In this document: piece by piece, positions 1,834 through 14,229 of the stretch
Position numbering within the stretch: position 1 is the stretch's first letter
Layout of the letters: each line of letters starts with the position of its first letter
NCBI RefSeq assembly: GCF_011058255.1
Contig: NZ_JAALFH010000033.1
Span: 1 to 64,000, forward strand
Source: Thioalkalivibrio sp. XN8
Lineage (GTDB): Bacteria > Pseudomonadota > Gammaproteobacteria > Steroidobacterales > XN24
Direction of reading: 5' to 3'
Length of the DNA stretch: 64,000 bases
Made by a program: the position numbers and the translations under genes
The notes under the pieces: generated by a model
What the model was told of the DNA's origin: nothing
Seen by the model: only the letters and a program-made list of their open reading frames with translations
The model's database searches: none

Positions 1834-3294
1834 ATGCCAGACGTCGAAGGCGGCCTGCTGTCCGCCCTGCTGCTCGGCGGCCACATGCTGCTGGTGGCCG
1901 GCCTAGCGGTGCGGATCCTGGCGCGCAAGCTGCCGGTCGGCAGCACCCTGGCGTGGCTGGTGGTGCTGTTCGTGCTGCCGGTGGTCGGCCCCGCGCTGTA
2001 CCTGTTCATCGGCGAGAACCGCCTGGGCAACAAGCGCGCGCGGCGCTGGACGGAAATCCACGATCTCTACCGCGGGTGGCAGGGGCGCCTCAGGACGCGC
2101 GCCGAGATCGACTGGAGCCGGCTGCACCCGCGCGCCCGGGCGCTGGCCAGCCACGGCGAGTCGATCACCGGCTTCGTCGCGCTGCAGGGGCATGCGCTCG
2201 AGCTGCTGGAAGGCTGGGACGATTTCGTCGAGGCGCTGGTGGCGGACATCGATGCGGCCCGCAGCACCTGCCACCTCGAGTTCTATATCTGGGAGTCCGC
2301 CGGGCGCGCCGCCGAGGTCGAGGCCGCGCTGGTGCGCGCCGCCGAGCGCGGCGTGATCTGCCGGGTGCTGGTGGACGATGTCGGCGCCGGCCGCTTCCTG
2401 CGCAGCCGTGCGGCCGGCAAGCTGCGGGCGGCGGGCGTGCAGGTCGTCCGCCAGCTCCCGGTGGGCCTGCTGCGCATGCTGTTCGTGCGCATGGACCTGC
2501 GCAACCACCGCAAGATCGTGGTGATCGACGGCGAGATCGGCTACACGGGGAGCATGAACCTGGTGGACCCGGCGCACTTCAAGAGCAACGCCGGGGTGGG
2601 GCGCTGGGTGGACGCCATGGTGCGGCTGCGCGGCCCCGCGGTGGAGGTGCTGAACGGCACCTTCCTCGAGGACTGGGAGCTGGAAACCGACGAGGGCATG
2701 GAGATCCTCGAGACGGCCGACCTGAAGGCCGTGCACGAGGAGGGCGACACGGTCGTGCAGGTGGTGCCCTCCGGCCCGGGCCTGAACCGGGCCTCGATTC
2801 ACCAGCTGCTGCTGTCGCTGCTGTATTCGGCCGAACACGAGCTGGTGCTGACGACGCCTTATTTCGTGCCGGACGAGTCGATCCTGACCGCCCTGATCTC
2901 GGCCGCCCGCCGCGGGGTGACAGTGACGCTGAACGTGCCGGACCGGCTCGACTCGATCCTGGCGCGCTTCGCCGGGGAGGCCTGTTTCTCCGAGCTGCTG
3001 GCGGCGGGAGTCCGGATCGCGCGCTACGAGCCGGACCTGCTGCACACCAAGGCGATTACCGTGGACGGCCGCATCGCCGTGCTCGGCTCGGTGAACATCG
3101 ACATGCGCAGCCTGTGGCTGAATTTCGAGATCTCGCTTTTCATCTACGACCGTGGTTGTGTCGGCCGCGTCCGCGACCTGCAGGCGCGCTACCTGCACGA
3201 CTCGGTGCTGCTGCAACCCAGCGCCTGGGAGGGGCGGCCGCTGGGCGGTCGCGTGGCCGAAGGCGTGCTGCGGCTGCTGGGGCCGCTGCTGTGA
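1834..3294 (+). CDS. cls: Cardiolipin synthase (phospholipase D family)
   Basis: Joins two phosphatidylglycerol molecules into cardiolipin and glycerol at the inner membrane. The 486-residue product has two N-terminal membrane helices (about residues 8-55, ending in the ALYLFIGENR motif typical of Cls) and two HKD catalytic motifs: H225-R-K with downstream GSMN, and H404-T-K with downstream GSVN. Length matches ClsA-type enzymes. A GGGAGGA ribosome site at 1824-1830 ends only three bases before the ATG at 1834, so the start is somewhat close but no better in-frame start exists. A TATACT hexamer at 1799-1804 is a possible -10. The gene is divergent from the DsbD-like gene and looks monocistronic. 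Confidence 0.95.
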   Translation: MPDVEGGLLSALLLGGHMLLVAGLAVRILARKLPVGSTLAWLVVLFVLPVVGPALYLFIGENRLGNKRARRWTEIHDLYRGWQGRLRTRAEIDWSRLHPRARALASHGESITGFVALQGHALELLEGWDDFVEALVADIDAARSTCHLEFYIWESAGRAAEVEAALVRAAERGVICRVLVDDVGAGRFLRSRAAGKLRAAGVQVVRQLPVGLLRMLFVRMDLRNHRKIVVIDGEIGYTGSMNLVDPAHFKSNAGVGRWVDAMVRLRGPAVEVLNGTFLEDWELETDEGMEILETADLKAVHEEGDTVVQVVPSGPGLNRASIHQLLLSLLYSAEHELVLTTPYFVPDESILTALISAARRGVTVTLNVPDRLDSILARFAGEACFSELLAAGVRIARYEPDLLHTKAITVDGRIAVLGSVNIDMRSLWLNFEISLFIYDRGCVGRVRDLQARYLHDSVLLQPSAWEGRPLGGRVAEGVLRLLGPLL

Positions 3295-3367
3295 ACGGCT
3301 CCGGCGCCGCCCACGGGCGACGCGCGGTCATCAAGACGCCGCGCTACCCCTGCTAGAATCGGCCGCC

Positions 3368-4585
3368 ATGGACAAGGCCGAGCTGTTGCAGCAGTTGAAA
3401 ATCGAGCGCGAGGCCCCGGCGCCCCGCGGTGCGCGCCCGGCGCTGTGGATCGCGGCCGGGCTGGTCGTGGTGCTCGCTGCCGTGGCCGGCTATTTCTGGG
3501 TGGTTGCCGCCGACGAGGCGGTGCCGGTGCGGGTCGGCACGGTCCAGGCGCCGGCCGGGAATGCGGCCCGCTCCGTGCTGGATGCGACCGGCTACGTGAC
3601 GGCGCGGCGCATCGCCACCGTGTCCGCCCAGGTCACCGGCCAGGTCGAGACCGTGTTGATCGAGGAGGGGATGGAAGTCGAGGAGGGCCAGGTCCTGGCG
3701 ACCATCGACGACACCGAGTGGCGCGCCCAGGTGGCGCTGGCCCAGGCCCAGCTCGAGTCCGCCCGCTCGCAGCTGGTGGAGATTCGTGCCCAGCTGGCCC
3801 AGGCCCGGCGCGAACTCGCCCGGCAGGAGGAGCTGGTGGTGCGCGGGCTGGCCTCCCAGGCGGCGGTGGATGCGGCGGCTACCGAGGTCGAGGCCCTGGC
3901 GGCGCGGCTGGCCAGCGCGAGCACGAGCGTCGAGGTGTCGCAGCGCTCCCTCGAGCTGGCCCGGGTACGCCTCGACAACACCGTGATCCGCGCGCCTTTC
4001 GCCGGGATCGTGACGGTCAAGGCGGCGCAGCCGGGCGAGATGATCTCCCCCGTGTCCGCGGGCGGCGGCTTCACCCGCACCGGCATCGGCACCATCGTCG
4101 ACATGGACTCGCTGGAGGTCCAGGTGGACGTGAACGAATCCTTCATCCAGCGGGTGCATCCCGGCCAGCGCGTGGAGGCCATCCTCAACGCCTACCCGGA
4201 CTGGCGTATTCCCGCCGAGGTGATCGCCATCATCCCGACGGCGGATCGCAGCCGCGCGACGGTCCGGGTCCGGGTGGCCCTGCTGGAGCGGGACCCGCGG
4301 ATCGTGCCGGACATGGGCGTGCGCGTCGCGTTCCTGTCGCCCGCGGAAGAGCCGGAAGGCGCGCCCGCGCCGCGGCTGCTGGTGCCCGCCGCGGCGGTGC
4401 GGGAGGAGAACGGGGCGGCGCACGTCTTCGTGCTGCAGGGCGAGCAGGTGGCGCGCCGCGCGGTGGAACTCGGCGCCGAGCAGGGCGGGTCCCGGCCCGT
4501 GCTGACAGGACTGCGCAGCGGCGAACGCGTGGTGCTGGATCCGCCTGCGGGGCTGGCGGACGGCGACCGGGTCAGGATCGAGTAG
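3368..4585 (+). CDS. HlyD/MacA-type periplasmic adaptor (membrane fusion protein)
   Basis: Periplasmic adaptor of an ABC exporter, bridging the inner-membrane pump and probably an outer-membrane channel. The 405-residue product has a short cytoplasmic N-terminus, one membrane helix (about residues 28-50), a biotinyl-lipoyl half near residues 80-120, an Ala/Gln/Glu-rich coiled-coil hairpin (about 120-205), the second lipoyl half with the IRAPFAGIV motif, and a beta-barrel region. I chose the ATG at 3368 because the membrane anchor then starts normally; the frame stays open upstream to 3152, but that part overlaps cls. It is the first of four same-strand genes that form a MacAB-like system; the ATPase follows after 16 bases. 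Confidence 0.9.
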
Positions 4586-8976: not shown

Positions 8977-9078
8977 GGCTCTATATCTCCGGTGATTGTC
9001 CTGCCGACTTGCCAGCGCATCGTCCGGCGGGTAGAACCCGAAATTCTACACTACCTCCCGGAGTGACAGTCCACTGCC

Positions 9079-9690
9079 ATGAGCGCCTATCCCGACGCGG
9101 AGTTCCTCACCAGCGCCAACAAGCGCTCCCAGTTCCTGCCGGACGAGGGCCGGGAGGTCGCCTTCGCGGGCCGCTCCAATGCCGGCAAGTCCAGCGCCAT
9201 CAACGCCATCCTCGGCCGGCGCGGCCTGGCCCGGACCAGCAAGACGCCCGGCCGCACCCAGCTGGTGAATTTTTTCGGCCTGGGCCCCGACCTGCGGGTC
9301 ACGGACCTGCCGGGCTACGGCTACGCGAAAGTGCCGGAGGCCGTGCGGCGCCACTGGGGGAAGCTGATGGATGACTACTTCCATCACCGCCGCTCGCTGG
9401 CCGGCCTGTTCATCGTCATGGACGCGCGCCGGCCGCTGACCGAGTTCGACCGCGCCATGCTCGGCTGGGCCGAGACGGCCGGCTGCCCGGTGCATCTGCT
9501 GCTGACCAAGGCCGACAAGCTCTCCCGCGGGGCCGCCGCAGCGGCGCTGCTCGGGGTGCGGAAGGAGGTTGGCGGCCTCGCGACGGCGCAGCTGTTCTCC
9601 GCGCTGAAGGGTACCGGGGTCGAAGCGGCGCGCGAGGTGCTCGACGGCTATCTCGGCGTGGCGCCCGCGCCGGGGCCGGGCGGCGGATAA
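9079..9690 (+). CDS. engB: Ribosome biogenesis GTPase EngB/YsxC (YihA)
   Basis: GTPase needed for assembly of the large ribosomal subunit. The 203-residue product has the G1 motif GRSNAGKSS (about residues 34-42), the G2 threonine in KTPGRTQ, G3 DLPGYG and G4 TKADK, in the usual order and length. The ATG at 9079 follows a CCCGGAGTG ribosome site. The gene is divergent from the cytochrome. Its stop lies immediately before an A-tract and hairpin that read as an intrinsic terminator on the opposite strand. Confidence 0.96.
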   Translation: MSAYPDAEFLTSANKRSQFLPDEGREVAFAGRSNAGKSSAINAILGRRGLARTSKTPGRTQLVNFFGLGPDLRVTDLPGYGYAKVPEAVRRHWGKLMDDYFHHRRSLAGLFIVMDARRPLTEFDRAMLGWAETAGCPVHLLLTKADKLSRGAAAAALLGVRKEVGGLATAQLFSALKGTGVEAAREVLDGYLGVAPAPGPGGG

Positions 9691-9723
9691 AAAAAGCCCC
9701 GGGGGGCAAAAGCGCCCCGGGGC
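9689..9723 (-). terminator. Intrinsic terminator (minus strand)
   Basis: A 12-bp GC-rich stem (9696-9707 with 9712-9723, one mismatch) closed by a four-base loop. On the minus strand it is followed directly by seven T residues (9689-9695). On the plus strand the stem is followed by AATACTT, so it is a poorer terminator for engB, although it could stop both. Confidence 0.75.
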
Positions 9724-9872
9724 AATACTTGGTCCGGTTTGGGGGAACCGGACTGCTGGCCCGCCCAGGGAGGGTGGCGGGCGAGCGTCACGTTGGCGCT
9801 CACGGATACTGACTCCCGCGGTGCGGCAAAAGTTCCGGCCCGGCTTGCCGGGCCGCCGGAATCGGTAAAAAA
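9689..9872 (-). ncRNA. Candidate structured small RNA between polA and engB
   Basis: Read on the minus strand, this 180-base stretch starts just after a TATATA hexamer (9877-9882) and a T-tract. It can fold into successive hairpins: 9833-9862 (GGCCCGG/CCGGGCC with tetraloop), 9783-9801, 9759-9782 (GCCCGCC stem, C-rich loop) and 9732-9753 (GTCCGGTT/AACCGGAC, C-rich loop). It ends in a strong terminator with seven U residues at 9689-9723. No gene lies upstream on this strand except polA beyond the lipoprotein, so the terminator needs its own transcript. The place and orientation (same strand as polA, tail to tail with engB) match spf (Spot 42) of E. coli, and ErsA of Pseudomonas lies in a related neighbourhood. 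The -35 is weak, and I have not shown sequence homology. Confidence 0.5.
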
Positions 9873-9981
9873 ACCTATATACGCCGGTGGATTGGCCCGG
9901 TGATGATCCCGGTCCAGGCCGGCGTTTGTGGCCGGATGGAACCACATGTGGCGAGTCGCCACGGCCAGGAAGCCGGCTGTT

Positions 9982-11469
9982 ATGCCCAGGAAAACCAGGA
10001 TCATTCTCGCCAGCGTCGCGCTGTCGCTCGGCGCCTGCGGCGGCGGTTCCGGGTCCGGCGGCGACGAGCCCGCCACCGCCTACTTTGTCTCGTCCCAGAT
10101 CATGCTCACCGCGATCCAGGGCGAGCCTCCGCCGAGCTACTCGGCCCAGGTCTTGTTCGACGGAGTGCCTGCCGACCAGGTGTTCGCCGAGTTGTCCTTC
10201 AGCGGCGAAGGCGTGGCTGAAATGGAGTTCATCGCGTGGAACGCGAGCTATGCCACGGTGGAAATTCGCTTCACCGACCCGGCGGACCTGGATCCCTGGG
10301 AGCACAAGGGCCTCGTGGGGATCAGGTTGTGTCACGACGCAGCCTGCAGCCGCCCGCTTTACAACATGCCGCGGTACCTCAACACCAGCTACATTGTCCG
10401 GGCCGCCGCGCCGCCGGAGCCGGATCCGGACCCCGACCCGACACTGGGGGTCCTGCCGGTGCTCGACCGGGTCGAACTCGGCCACGATGTCGTGGATGCG
10501 GAATACAGCGCCGCGCTGGAGGCGATCGTCATGGTGTCCATGCAGCCCGAGAACGCGCTGCATGTGCTTTACCCGGCCACCGGCGTCACTCACTCCGTGC
10601 CGTTGAGCCGCACTCCGGTCGCCGTTTCGGTCGCCCCCGACGGGCGCACGGCGGCGGTCGGGCATGACGGCCTGGTCAGTCACGTCGAGCTCGAGACACT
10701 CGGGGACGCCCTGCCGCCGCCGCCAGTGGAACTGGCGCTGTCGGCCCAGGTTTTCGACCTGGTGCTCGACGGCCGCGGCCGCGCGCATGTGATTCCGGTG
10801 GAACTGATTCCGGTGAGTTACCCGAGGAGCTTCGTCTCGATCGACATCGCCAACGGTACCGAGCAGCTGGGCTCCAGTTCCGTAACGCCAGGACGAGCTC
10901 GCCTCCACCCGTCGGGAGACTTCATTTACGTCGCCACGCACTCATATCCCAATGACCTCGAAAAATGGGACGTACGATCCGGCACGGCGGAGCTCGTCGA
11001 CGACTCGCCTTACCACGGCGACTACCCCATTTGCGAGGACGTGTGGCCCTCAGAGGACGGCCAGGTGCTGTATACGCCGTGCCGAGTCGTGTTCCGAGCC
11101 TCGTCGGACCCCGCGCGGGACATGACCTTCGCCGGCGTGTTCAACGATTCCTTCGAGGGATGGGGCCGTTTCGAAGCCCTCAGCCACTCCGGCGAACTCG
11201 GCGAGATCATGGTGGTCGACGTGGAAGTTCGGCCGGACTGCGAATTCTCGGTGTGGGCGCCCCCGTGCCACCGGCGGCTCGGGATCTATGAGGACGGCTT
11301 CCTCAACCGCATCGAGCAGTACTGGATTCCGCCGCTCTCGGTGGGAGGGCGGTCCTACGCGCAGGAAATACTGTTCGTCTTCCACAGCAGCAACGGCGCC
11401 CACCGCTACCTGCTCAGCCGGCTCCCGGGCGTCCCGGCAGACCCCCACTACCTGAGCGTGCTGCGCTAG
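9982..11469 (+). CDS. Predicted lipoprotein with beta-propeller-like repeats, function unknown
   Basis: I do not recognise a specific family. The ATG at 9982 gives a clean lipoprotein signal: a positive N-terminus, a hydrophobic core and the lipobox LGAC (Cys at about residue 18), followed by a Gly/Ser linker. The product is 495 residues. After residue 150 it shows repeated short segments such as VSVAPDGRTAAV and ARLHPSGDFIYVAT, which resemble blades of seven-bladed (YVTN/WD-like) propellers. Cysteine pairs near the C-terminus could form disulfides. The frame is open upstream to 9928. The gene separates engB from polA, which are usually closer, so it looks like an insertion into a conserved neighbourhood. 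Confidence 0.7.
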   Translation: MPRKTRIILASVALSLGACGGGSGSGGDEPATAYFVSSQIMLTAIQGEPPPSYSAQVLFDGVPADQVFAELSFSGEGVAEMEFIAWNASYATVEIRFTDPADLDPWEHKGLVGIRLCHDAACSRPLYNMPRYLNTSYIVRAAAPPEPDPDPDPTLGVLPVLDRVELGHDVVDAEYSAALEAIVMVSMQPENALHVLYPATGVTHSVPLSRTPVAVSVAPDGRTAAVGHDGLVSHVELETLGDALPPPPVELALSAQVFDLVLDGRGRAHVIPVELIPVSYPRSFVSIDIANGTEQLGSSSVTPGRARLHPSGDFIYVATHSYPNDLEKWDVRSGTAELVDDSPYHGDYPICEDVWPSEDGQVLYTPCRVVFRASSDPARDMTFAGVFNDSFEGWGRFEALSHSGELGEIMVVDVEVRPDCEFSVWAPPCHRRLGIYEDGFLNRIEQYWIPPLSVGGRSYAQEILFVFHSSNGAHRYLLSRLPGVPADPHYLSVLR

Positions 11470-11523: not shown

Positions 11524-14229
11524 TCAGTGGGCTTCGTCCCAGTTCAGGCCGGCGGCGGCATCGACCTTCAGCGGCACCGAAAGCTCGATCGCCTCGCCCA
11601 TCAGGTGATCGAGCGCCTCGATCAGCGCCTCGACGTCGGCCTCCGCCACCTCGAACACCAGCTCGTCGTGCACCTGCATGATCAGGCGCGCGTCGACCTT
11701 GCCGACCGCCAGCCAGTCGGCCACCCGGATCATCGCCAGCTTGATGATGTCGGCGGCCGTGCCCTGCATCGGCGCATTGATGGCGCTGCGCTCGGCGTAC
11801 TGGCGCCGCTGGCTGTTGCGCGAGCGGATCTCCGGCAGGTGCAGCCGGCGCCCCAGCACGGTGGTGACGTAGCCGTCGGTGCGCGCTTTCTCGCGGGTCT
11901 CGTCCATGTAGCGCTTCACGCCCGGGTAGCGCTCGAAATACAGCTCCACGTACTCCTGCGCCGCCGCCCGCTCGATGCCGAGCTGGCGGGCCAGGCCGAA
12001 GGCGGACATGCCGTAGATCAGGCCGAAGTTGATGGCCTTCGCCGAGCGGCGCTGCTCGGCCGTGACCTGCTCGAGCGGCGTCTCGAACACCTCCGCGGCC
12101 GTGGCGCGGTGGATGTCCTGGTCCTCGCGGAACGCGGCCTGCAACCCCTCGTCCCCGGACAGGTGCGCCATGATCCGCAGCTCGATCTGCGAGTAGTCGG
12201 CCGCCACCAGCCGGTAGCCCTCGGGCGCGACGAAGGCCTGGCGGATGCGCCGGCCCTCGGCCGTGCGCACCGGGATGTTCTGCAGGTTCGGGTCGGAGGA
12301 GGACAAGCGTCCGGTCGCCGCCACCGCCTGGTGATAGGAGGTGTGCACGCGGCTGGCCGCGTCGCACAGCTCCGGCAGCTTGTCGGTGTAGGTGGACTTC
12401 AGCTTCGCCAGGCCGCGGTACTCCAGGATCCGCCCCGGCAACTCGTGCTCGGCGCTGAGTTCCTCCAGCACGTCCTCGGCGGTGGAGGGCTGGCCGCCGG
12501 GCGTCTTGCGCAGGGGCTTCAGGCCGAGGCGCTCGAACAGGATCTCCTGCAGCTGCTTGCTGGAGCCGAGGTTGAACTTGCCGCCGGCCGCCGCGAAAGC
12601 GGCCGCCTCGGCCGCCGCCATGCCCTGCTCGAGCTCGCGGCTCTGCCGGCGCAGCAGCGCGGTGTCGAGCAGCACGCCGTGGCGCTCCATGGCATAGAGA
12701 ATCGGCACCAGCGGGCGCTCGATTTCCTCGTAGACCTGCTGCAGGCCGGGGGTGTCCTTAAGCTGCGGCCACAGCGCCCGGTGCAGCCGCAGCGTCACCT
12801 CGGCGTCCTCGGCGGCGTAGGGCGCGGCCGTCGCCACCGGCACCTGGTCGAAGGTGATCTGCTTCGCGCCCTTGCCGGCCACGTCCTCGTAGCGGATGGT
12901 CTGGTGGCCGAGGTATTTCAGCGCCACCGAGTCCATGTCGTGGCGCGTGGCGGTCGAGTCCAGCACGTAGGACTCGAGCATGGTGTCGTAGCGCACGCCG
13001 GCCAGCGCGATGCCGTGGTTGGCCAGCACGTGCCAGTCGTACTTGAGGTGATGGCCGATCTTGCCGCGCGCCGGGTCCTCCAGCAGCGGCTTGAGCTTGG
13101 CCAGCGTGTCCTCGAGCCCCAGCTGCTGCGGCGCGTCCGGGTCGTGGTGTGCCAGCGGCACGTAGGCGGCGCGCCCGGGTTCGACCGCGAAGGACACGCC
13201 GACGATGCGCGCCTTCATGTAGTCCAGGCTGTCGGTCTCGGTGTCGAAGGCGAACTCGTCGGCTGCGCCGAGTTGCGCCAGCCAGTCGTCCAGCTGCGCC
13301 GCGGTGAAGACGGTCTCGTACTCGGCGGGGGGGGCCGGCGGGCTGTCGGCCGTGGCGGCCCCGGCCGGGTTGCCGTCCTCGTCCGGCAGCTTGCGCAGCA
13401 GGGTGTTGAATTCCAGCCGCGTGTACAGCTCGCGCAGGCGCTGGACGTCGGGCGGCGCCGGCGCCAGGTCGGCCGGGCCCTGCTCCAGCTCGACGTCGCA
13501 GCGGATGGTGGCGAGCTCGCGGGAGAGCTCGAGCTGGTCCAGGTGGGCGCGCAGGCTCTCGCCGATCTTGCCGCCCACCTCGTCCGCGCGCGCCTTGAGC
13601 GTGTCGAGGTTGCCGAACTCCTGCAGCCACTTGGTTGCGGTCTTGGGGCCGCACTTCGGCACCCCGGGGATGTTGTCCGAGCTGTCGCCGACCAGCGCCA
13701 GCCAGTCGATGATGCGCTCCGGCGGCACGCCGAACTTCTCCTCCACGCCGGCGCGGTCCAGTACTTTGCCGGTCATGGTGTTCACCAGCGTGACGTCGCC
13801 GTTGACCAGCTGCGCCATGTCCTTGTCGCCGGTCGAGACCAGCGTCGCCATGCCCGCCTCGTGCGCCTGGCGCGCCAGCGTGCCGATGACGTCGTCGGCC
13901 TCGACCCCGGGGACTTGCAGGATCGGCAGGCCCAGGGCCTGCACGATCTCGAGCAGCGGCCCGACCTGGGCCGAGAGCTCGTCCGGCATCGGCGGCCGGT
14001 TGGCCTTGTACTCGGCGAACAGCTCGTCGCGGAAGGTCTTGCCCTTGGCGTCGAACACTACCGCGAAGTGTTCCGCCTGCTGCTCGTCGCGCAGCTTCAG
14101 CAGCATGTTCACCACCCCGAGCACCGCGCCGACGGGCTCGTCGCGGCTGTTGGTCAGCGGCGGCAGGGCGTGGAAGGCGCGGTAGAGGTACGACGAGCCA
14201 TCGACCAGCACCAGCTGCGGCTTGCTCAC
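11524..14229 (-). CDS. polA: DNA polymerase I
   Basis: Repair and Okazaki-fragment-processing polymerase. The 901-residue product has the 5' nuclease domain (about 1-290, with DAKGKTFR and GDSSDNIPGV), a 3'-5' exonuclease domain (about 315-510, with FDTETDSLDYM) and the family A polymerase domain (about 520-901, with DYSQIELRIMAH, the RRSAKAINFGLIYG O-helix and MQVHDELVFEV). The start is GTG at 14227-14229, which overlaps the lysA stop by four bases (GTGA). The frame stays open upstream through lysA, but that is fortuitous. It is the last gene of the arg-lysA unit, an unusual place for polA. Confidence 0.97.
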   Translation of the reverse strand: MSKPQLVLVDGSSYLYRAFHALPPLTNSRDEPVGAVLGVVNMLLKLRDEQQAEHFAVVFDAKGKTFRDELFAEYKANRPPMPDELSAQVGPLLEIVQALGLPILQVPGVEADDVIGTLARQAHEAGMATLVSTGDKDMAQLVNGDVTLVNTMTGKVLDRAGVEEKFGVPPERIIDWLALVGDSSDNIPGVPKCGPKTATKWLQEFGNLDTLKARADEVGGKIGESLRAHLDQLELSRELATIRCDVELEQGPADLAPAPPDVQRLRELYTRLEFNTLLRKLPDEDGNPAGAATADSPPAPPAEYETVFTAAQLDDWLAQLGAADEFAFDTETDSLDYMKARIVGVSFAVEPGRAAYVPLAHHDPDAPQQLGLEDTLAKLKPLLEDPARGKIGHHLKYDWHVLANHGIALAGVRYDTMLESYVLDSTATRHDMDSVALKYLGHQTIRYEDVAGKGAKQITFDQVPVATAAPYAAEDAEVTLRLHRALWPQLKDTPGLQQVYEEIERPLVPILYAMERHGVLLDTALLRRQSRELEQGMAAAEAAAFAAAGGKFNLGSSKQLQEILFERLGLKPLRKTPGGQPSTAEDVLEELSAEHELPGRILEYRGLAKLKSTYTDKLPELCDAASRVHTSYHQAVAATGRLSSSDPNLQNIPVRTAEGRRIRQAFVAPEGYRLVAADYSQIELRIMAHLSGDEGLQAAFREDQDIHRATAAEVFETPLEQVTAEQRRSAKAINFGLIYGMSAFGLARQLGIERAAAQEYVELYFERYPGVKRYMDETREKARTDGYVTTVLGRRLHLPEIRSRNSQRRQYAERSAINAPMQGTAADIIKLAMIRVADWLAVGKVDARLIMQVHDELVFEVAEADVEALIEALDHLMGEAIELSVPLKVDAAAGLNWDEAH

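Follow-up and report, generated by a model that had tools for sequence, protein, structure and literature searches.

Spot 42, the product of spf in E. coli, is repressed by CRP, and MicA, RybB and MicL are the enterobacterial sigma-E sRNAs of the envelope stress response; for the lineages treated here we know of no described sigma-E sRNA, nor do we know of a function of anti-hemB. The latter, Burkholderia RNA 7, is listed in the accessible part of its source as the 105-nt transcript ncS04 of Burkholderia cenocepacia (PMC5688073). The RNA sX13 was described in 2013 as exclusive to Xanthomonadaceae; its repression of reporters needs both the C-rich loops and G-rich motifs near the start codons, and Hfq is dispensable for its activity (PMC3771888, accessible sections, which also cite a title on CRP repression of spf).

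The locus described here lies in a 64,000-nt stretch of Thioalkalivibrio sp. XN8 DNA (the window) and almost certainly represents a real, widespread sRNA gene. The initial annotation had proposed such a gene from the position shared with spf and ErsA and from C-rich loops, and conservation, alignment and covariation bear it out. The arrangement, tail to tail with engB and on the polA strand, agrees with the positions of the open reading frames (Table 1). TIGR03598 has a single match in the genome (E 6.4e-64); the engB stop codon is at 9688–9690. Between the end of polA and the sRNA unit lie about 1.7 kb with an opposite-strand ORF, which from the ATG at 9982 has a lipoprotein-like N-terminus and for which a Pfam search (9982–11469) gave no match. 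In L002, a locus from the same genus, only about 50 nt separate the end of polA from the sRNA downstream of it; given that gap, the ORF 9982–11469 looks like an insertion.

Table 1. Predicted features of the sRNA locus, in window coordinates
Feature	Position	Strand	Basis
engB (YsxC/YihA GTPase), convergent neighbour	9079–9690	+	ORF; Pfam MMR_HSR1
Predicted sRNA, about 113 nt	9801–9689	-	R1 and R2 matches at 9689–9804, conservation, folding; start inferred from promoter, ± a few nt
Intrinsic terminator	hairpin 9723–9696, U7 9695–9689	-	sequence, fold; overlaps engB stop codon
Stem-loop 3 (SL3), loop CCCCCA (9745–9740)	9732–9753	-	fold; covariation
Stem-loop 2 (SL2), loop ACCCUCCCUG (9775–9766)	9759–9782	-	CTCCCT conservation; stem covaries
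Stem-loop 1 (SL1)	9783–9801	-	fold; helix 1 with double changes in each of its 5 pairs (model-fitted alignment)
-10 element TCAGTA	9807–9812	-	sequence; 17 nt past -35 hexamer GAACTT
-35 element GGAACTT, sigma-E/AlgU-type promoter	9830–9836	-	sequence; GAACTT recurrence across genomes
Intervening ORF between polA and sRNA	9928–11469 at longest	+	ORF list
polA, upstream of sRNA	11524–14229	- (sRNA strand)	ORF, homologues aligned; start codon approximate

The 5′ boundary originally set at 9872 was wrong. BLASTN conservation begins at query 123–124 (about window 9838) in two same-genus genomes and at query 155–160 (about 9805) in several more distant ones, so that the conservation of 9689–9880 expected in relatives holds from these points on and not further 5′. 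The start is placed near 9801 because GGAAC[TC] stands at a nearly constant upstream place in the aligned loci; as 9836–9807 reads as a promoter, the 5′-most ~70 nt of the unit as first drawn, with its first hairpin, are not expected in the RNA, which most likely runs from 9801 to 9689, the 5′ part being promoter DNA.

Four hairpins had been annotated on the minus strand, and four indeed form in 9801–9689 (-61.5 kcal/mol, z -4.72), namely SL1, SL2, SL3 and the terminator; the first of those annotated overlaps the promoter. None of 200 dinucleotide shuffles was as stable, for this stretch or for 9872–9689 (z -4.77), so that the fold is far more stable than chance with both boundary choices. The C-rich loops are real (Table 1), that of SL2 having the motif CCCUCCCU, and the terminator loop is UUUU, not C-rich. 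Of the strong terminator originally claimed, the intrinsic type and the U7 stand, but the stem is predicted to have 11 pairs, interrupted by an internal mismatch, instead of a clean 12 bp; a simple consensus scan did not list the terminator 9723–9689.

By BLASTN the stretch was matched in 16 of 59 genomes, its own included. Of eighteen loci fetched, 15 (our own and 14 others) have the unit and entered the alignment; L014, L016 and L018, short matches without the unit, were excluded. Unit and hairpins are kept in the 15 aligned loci, as predicted for sister genomes: 9 of 26 consensus pairs show double compensatory changes and CUCCCU is invariant. A covariance model made from these loci (R1) matches 129 of 276 Gammaproteobacteria, in 101 of 216 genera, at E ≤ 0.01, which is more than chance would give; the E-values of R1 and of R2 (below) are rough owing to a shortened calibration, and the class is taken in the GTDB sense, which includes the betaproteobacteria. 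Twelve of the 129 genomes have more than one site (two to four), in some cases arranged in tandem. From 149 listed sites 142 were used, seven second-copy sites on other contigs being omitted; counts of promoter, synteny and CTCCCT take the best site per genome (n = 129), and one locus-level step took 94 of the 129 loci, with L027 and L299 (same-genus repeats) and L347–L379 left out. A focused search, run without the too short L199, revealed relatives beyond the 129 genomes. The second model, R2, was made from 105 matches with neither sX13 nor Pseudomonadaceae-like (ErsA-type) loci included; applied to 58 engB flanks from genomes that had given no genome-wide R1 match, it matches 18 at E ≤ 0.1 and 40 not.

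Covariation was followed in two larger alignments. In the 105-sequence alignment, which was fitted to the model and hence leans towards structure, double changes occur in 26 of 26 pairs and 96.1% of the cells are paired, the averages in shuffles being 18.9 pairs and 78.1%. A structure-blind MAFFT alignment of the 88 genomes with at least 45 bits, read against the window's own fold, has 86.4% of cells paired, compared with 30.2–49.2% for slid partners, and 417 double-change cells, compared with 71–119; pairs with a double change number 32 of 33, but since the slid controls also reach 14–22 of 33, this count alone is weak. CTCCCT is present in the RNA, mostly at position 27–37, in 105 of 129 genomes, where shuffles give 13.9; these shuffles, like those for the promoter below, preserve base composition only.

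A scan of named genomes for the loop hairpin returned at least 119 stretches, by title mostly from betaproteobacteria and some from Ectothiorhodospiraceae and Steroidobacteraceae; among 120 listed sites, engB lies within 3 kb in 75 and polA in 9. Records labelled as Klebsiella, Clostridia and Chloroflexi MAGs (L150, L086, L167) also carry the hairpin; in L150 engB and cytochrome c stand nearby, the betaproteobacterial arrangement, and its label or binning looks doubtful. Several Comamonadaceae (L050, L061, L064, L067, L069 and others) have the hairpin and no engB within 3 kb when the window's EngB is the query; there the sRNA gene may have moved elsewhere. Multiple copies at the engB locus were seen in Nitrosospira briensis (L111, two) and, as four adjacent copies each, in L303 (G209, 2550–3304) and L298 (G302, 2559–3494).

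The promoter of the window reads GGAACTT-N17-TCAGTA, and the two-part layout GAAC[T/C]...TC is the form of sigma-E/AlgU promoters. In 14 of the first 15 loci GGAAC[TC] stands upstream at nearly the same position (GGAACTT in 10), L013 having TGAACT. At -50 to -22 of the RNA start, an interval chosen after these 15 loci had been viewed, GAACTT is found in 71 of 129 genomes (mean 0.8, maximum 4, in 100 mononucleotide shuffles) and GAAC[TC] in 102 (6.9, maximum 15); elsewhere in the 120 nt GAACTT has 2 sites only. Between the hexamer GAAC[TC]N and a following TC lie exactly 16 nt in 80 of the 102 genomes, 17 nt in 13 and 18 nt in 8; each of 22 other distances (5–29 nt) is seen in 0–11. Together, GAAC[T/C]-N15–18-TC is present in 99 of 129 genomes and absent from 30, whereas shuffles reach 1.46 on average and 5 at most. 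The genome itself encodes RpoE (305.9 bits; curated cut-off 236.15) and Hfq (101.3 bits; cut-off 61.7), and a sigma-70 consensus scan of 9000–11000 found no site. GGAACTC-N16-TCACA, about 0.2 kb before the genome's own rpoE match, was dropped as evidence, as one such site may be chance.

It could be argued that the sRNA, though of this family, is made from a housekeeping promoter or by processing, and that GAACTT is another kind of site. Burkholderia-type and Xanthomonas-type loci do seem to use other promoters: the former have a TATATCATA/TATATGATA-like box in place of a clean sigma-E site, the sX13 loci examined have no sigma-E box, and among the 120 listed hairpin sites only 43 have GGAAC[TC] within 75 nt upstream. 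Yet the breadth of the two-part motif and its exact 16-nt spacing are as expected of a sigma factor site, which leaves this alternative unlikely. Judged from the promoter sequences, the sRNA is probably part of the envelope-stress regulon; the sigma-E-type promoter that these loci have in common suggests a role in envelope stress and makes the function testable in culturable species.

As to the surroundings, the neighbours were found by tblastn with the window's own EngB and PolA proteins. In 108 of 129 genomes the RNA lies at most 1 kb from engB or at most 1.5 kb from polA (both in 59, engB alone in 29, polA alone in 20), and 21 have neither gene in the flanking DNA examined. Where present, engB is convergent with the RNA in 83 of 88 loci, with a median gap of 40.5 nt. 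Among the 69 genomes with a listed place of engB, the RNA is within 1 kb of it in 50, downstream in 49 and convergent in 47. Vogesella aquatica (L096), as well as L313 and L314, have the RNA codirectional with engB.

It has also to be considered that there is no independent sRNA, the hairpins being the 3′ UTR of polA with a terminator as a stop against read-through. This would suit L002 with its short gap, and of the 79 loci with polA within 1.5 kb, 75 have it upstream and on the RNA strand. However, the unit is still kept in the window, where polA is remote and behind an opposite-strand ORF, as well as in the 29 loci with engB and no polA nearby, and a terminator needs neither a promoter of two parts at fixed distance nor conserved C-rich loops; the explanation is thus improbable. 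The terminator had been said to serve no annotated gene on its strand, which fits this genome by distance; given the short gap in L002, the unit may in genomes generally share in ending polA transcription.

Regarding described families, Rfam anti-hemB (RF02837) matches 9600–10000 with 47.6 bits (E 3.4e-10; gathering score 49.5), that is, the threshold is missed by 1.9 bits, and the whole 64-kb window has no gathering-level match to it. In the same interval sX13 (RF02232) scores 28.2 bits (E 0.0015; gathering score 50); run over the genome with stricter filters, the sX13 model gave no match. Across the 276 genomes it matched 16, and the three loci above the cut-off sit downstream of polA. Seven of the 13 matches below the cut-off fall on R1 coordinates (G209, G128, G177, G263, G302, G076, G301), the one in G119 coincides with an R1 site from the focused search, and five lie off R1 sites (G261, G071, G114, G316, G163). 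R2 finds sX13 in three of three loci (E 4e-7 to 8e-6).

Kinship to ErsA at the polA-engB position, proposed earlier from synteny, now goes beyond it. In the Pseudomonadaceae-like family of G202, engB was matched in 24 of 25 genomes, and after engB R2 finds an ErsA-type RNA in 15 of these 24 loci (E 6e-7 to 0.006), with no match at E ≤ 1 elsewhere in those 94,639 bases. Fourteen of the 24 share an ErsA-like core, all of them among the 15, and all 14 have a sigma-E-type promoter, GAAC[T/C]-N15–19-TC[A/T]; the core word was picked from these loci, and their identity as ErsA is by place and inferred family, not by a deposited ErsA sequence. R1 sees these RNAs weakly: among its many weak matches in the family, three adjoin engB (E 0.07–0.27). 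Aligned with the ErsA-type RNA of L268, the window RNA has 46% identity; it has compact hairpins in place of the ErsA-like core and layout. The Pseudomonas sRNA P15 (Rfam RF00627) was tried as a name for ErsA and rejected, its sole match above the cut-off (in G202) being on another contig than engB. P15 matches outside that family, at G209:C21:73937–74058 (69.8 of 70 bits, just below the cut-off) and G302:C13:44437–44578 (below it), are on other contigs than the sRNA copies of these genomes.

The position between polA and yihA/engB, the same as that of E. coli spf, could mean a true Spot 42 orthologue, a CRP-controlled, Hfq-dependent carbon regulator, and in the 7 kb around E. coli spf the best place for R2 is spf itself; its score of 13.7 bits (rough E 0.012) is too weak to claim. 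The Rfam search does not support identity with Spot 42: 9600–10000 gives no match to Spot_42 (RF00021) at E ≤ 10. The RNA should not go under that name. Neither does the model match anywhere in the genome, and over the 276 genomes it has none above the cut-off and two weak matches (E 0.007 and 0.008), the E. coli control being detected. Since, moreover, a forced alignment has 42% identity over 83 columns and the promoter is of sigma-E type where spf is CRP-repressed, orthology is very improbable. That the region is a small protein-coding gene is hardly credible: a minus-strand ORF (9648–10076, 142 aa) spans it and E. coli spf also bears an annotated small protein, SpfP, but the 15 aligned units span 107–129 nt regardless of multiples of three and their stems covary, and the coding reading was rejected on these grounds.

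How might the sRNA act? A promoter of its own, of sigma-E (RpoE/AlgU) type, would drive transcription, and its own terminator would stop it at the engB stop codon; rigid hairpins would expose the C-rich loops (CCCUCCCU and CCCCC), as in sX13, for pairing in trans with G-rich sites close to start codons, be they ribosome-binding sites or enhancers, and the pairing would lower translation of the bound mRNAs during envelope stress. The SL2 loop resembles the anti-Shine-Dalgarno end of 16S rRNA, and therefore many mRNAs could be bound; moreover, the CUCCCU loop is among the most constant parts while the stems vary, which fits an action like that of sX13. By analogy with the latter, action through the C-rich loops is reasonably likely. 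In the genome 29 sites fit the pattern AGGGAGGN{3,9}ATG and 7 its reversed form; in two sisters the counts are 26 and 8, and 19 and 4. An excess of this kind is what a Shine-Dalgarno-like word should give. All 29 sites and 30 of the 45 from sisters were fetched, and 47 of the 59 gave a reading frame of at least 60 aa; besides a repeated 88-aa protein, five genes (judged by eye to be UspA-like, LeuD-like, oxidoreductase-like and two small unknowns) recur between the own and sister genomes. This seed scan of own and sister genomes yielded no coherent target class.

Taken together, a trans-acting sRNA of about 113 nt with a sigma-E-type promoter and sX13-like action, a member of a broad polA-engB family, is the best joint explanation and a likely one. 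What the computation shows is conservation and covariation, constancy of the loop and of the two-part promoter motif, synteny, and recognition across the groups by a single model; transcription, start site, sigma factor and mode of action are predictions. That the anti-hemB threshold is so narrowly missed, together with a position between anti-hemB, sX13 and ErsA, suggests that these belong together; from the sequences, the window RNA would be part of one broad, mostly sigma-E-driven gamma- and betaproteobacterial family with anti-hemB, sX13 and probably ErsA. Rfam keeps anti-hemB and sX13 as separate families, and when 20 R1 loci were scanned with Rfam only two exceeded the anti-hemB gathering score and no other family matched. 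The literature search found no class-wide description of the family (subscription papers may hold one), nor did the accessible parts of PMC11722255, PMC12235514, PMC3110155, PMC7011215, PMC3521395 and PMC5819304 contain one; among the papers it ranked, none treated ErsA and sX13 together, and for an sRNA downstream of polA it found the sX13 paper alone. We lean slightly towards the view that all four RNAs branch from one ancient family maintained at the polA-engB locus in gamma- and betaproteobacteria; its usual sigma-E control would then make it the general and ancestral non-coding part of the envelope stress response in lineages other than enterobacteria, and Spot 42 could be a far-diverged branch with changed control.

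In comparison with the known systems, MicA, RybB and MicL depend on sigma-E, as is proposed for the window RNA, but are encoded at other loci and pair by a 5′ seed with Hfq. Spot 42 shares the locus between polA and engB/yihA, whereas the spf stretch has no CUCCCU loop and its upstream GAACT is without a TC at 15–18 nt. Anti-hemB has the same CCUCCCUG loop hairpin, middle stem-loop and terminator, its full-length model (positions 1–81) matching 9784–9689, with engB adjoining the RNA in Burkholderia-type loci; the Rfam model of 81 positions, however, is without SL1, and these loci seem to use a different promoter from the sigma-E type of the window. According to the accessible sections of PMC3771888, sX13 has three stems with C-rich loops and is always downstream of polA; the window RNA has two such loops, the terminator loop being UUUU, and is downstream of polA with one opposite-strand ORF between, and at the sX13 loci engB was not found within flanks of about 1.5 kb. 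ErsA shares the intergenic location between polA and engB but has an unstructured domain between two stem-loops (PMC8575079, accessible part) where the window RNA has compact hairpins, and the ErsA-type RNAs are without the CUCCCU stem-loop 2; ErsA is under sigma-22/AlgU control (PMC8395346, accessible part), and the promoter of the window RNA is, by its sequence, of the same sigma-E/AlgU type.
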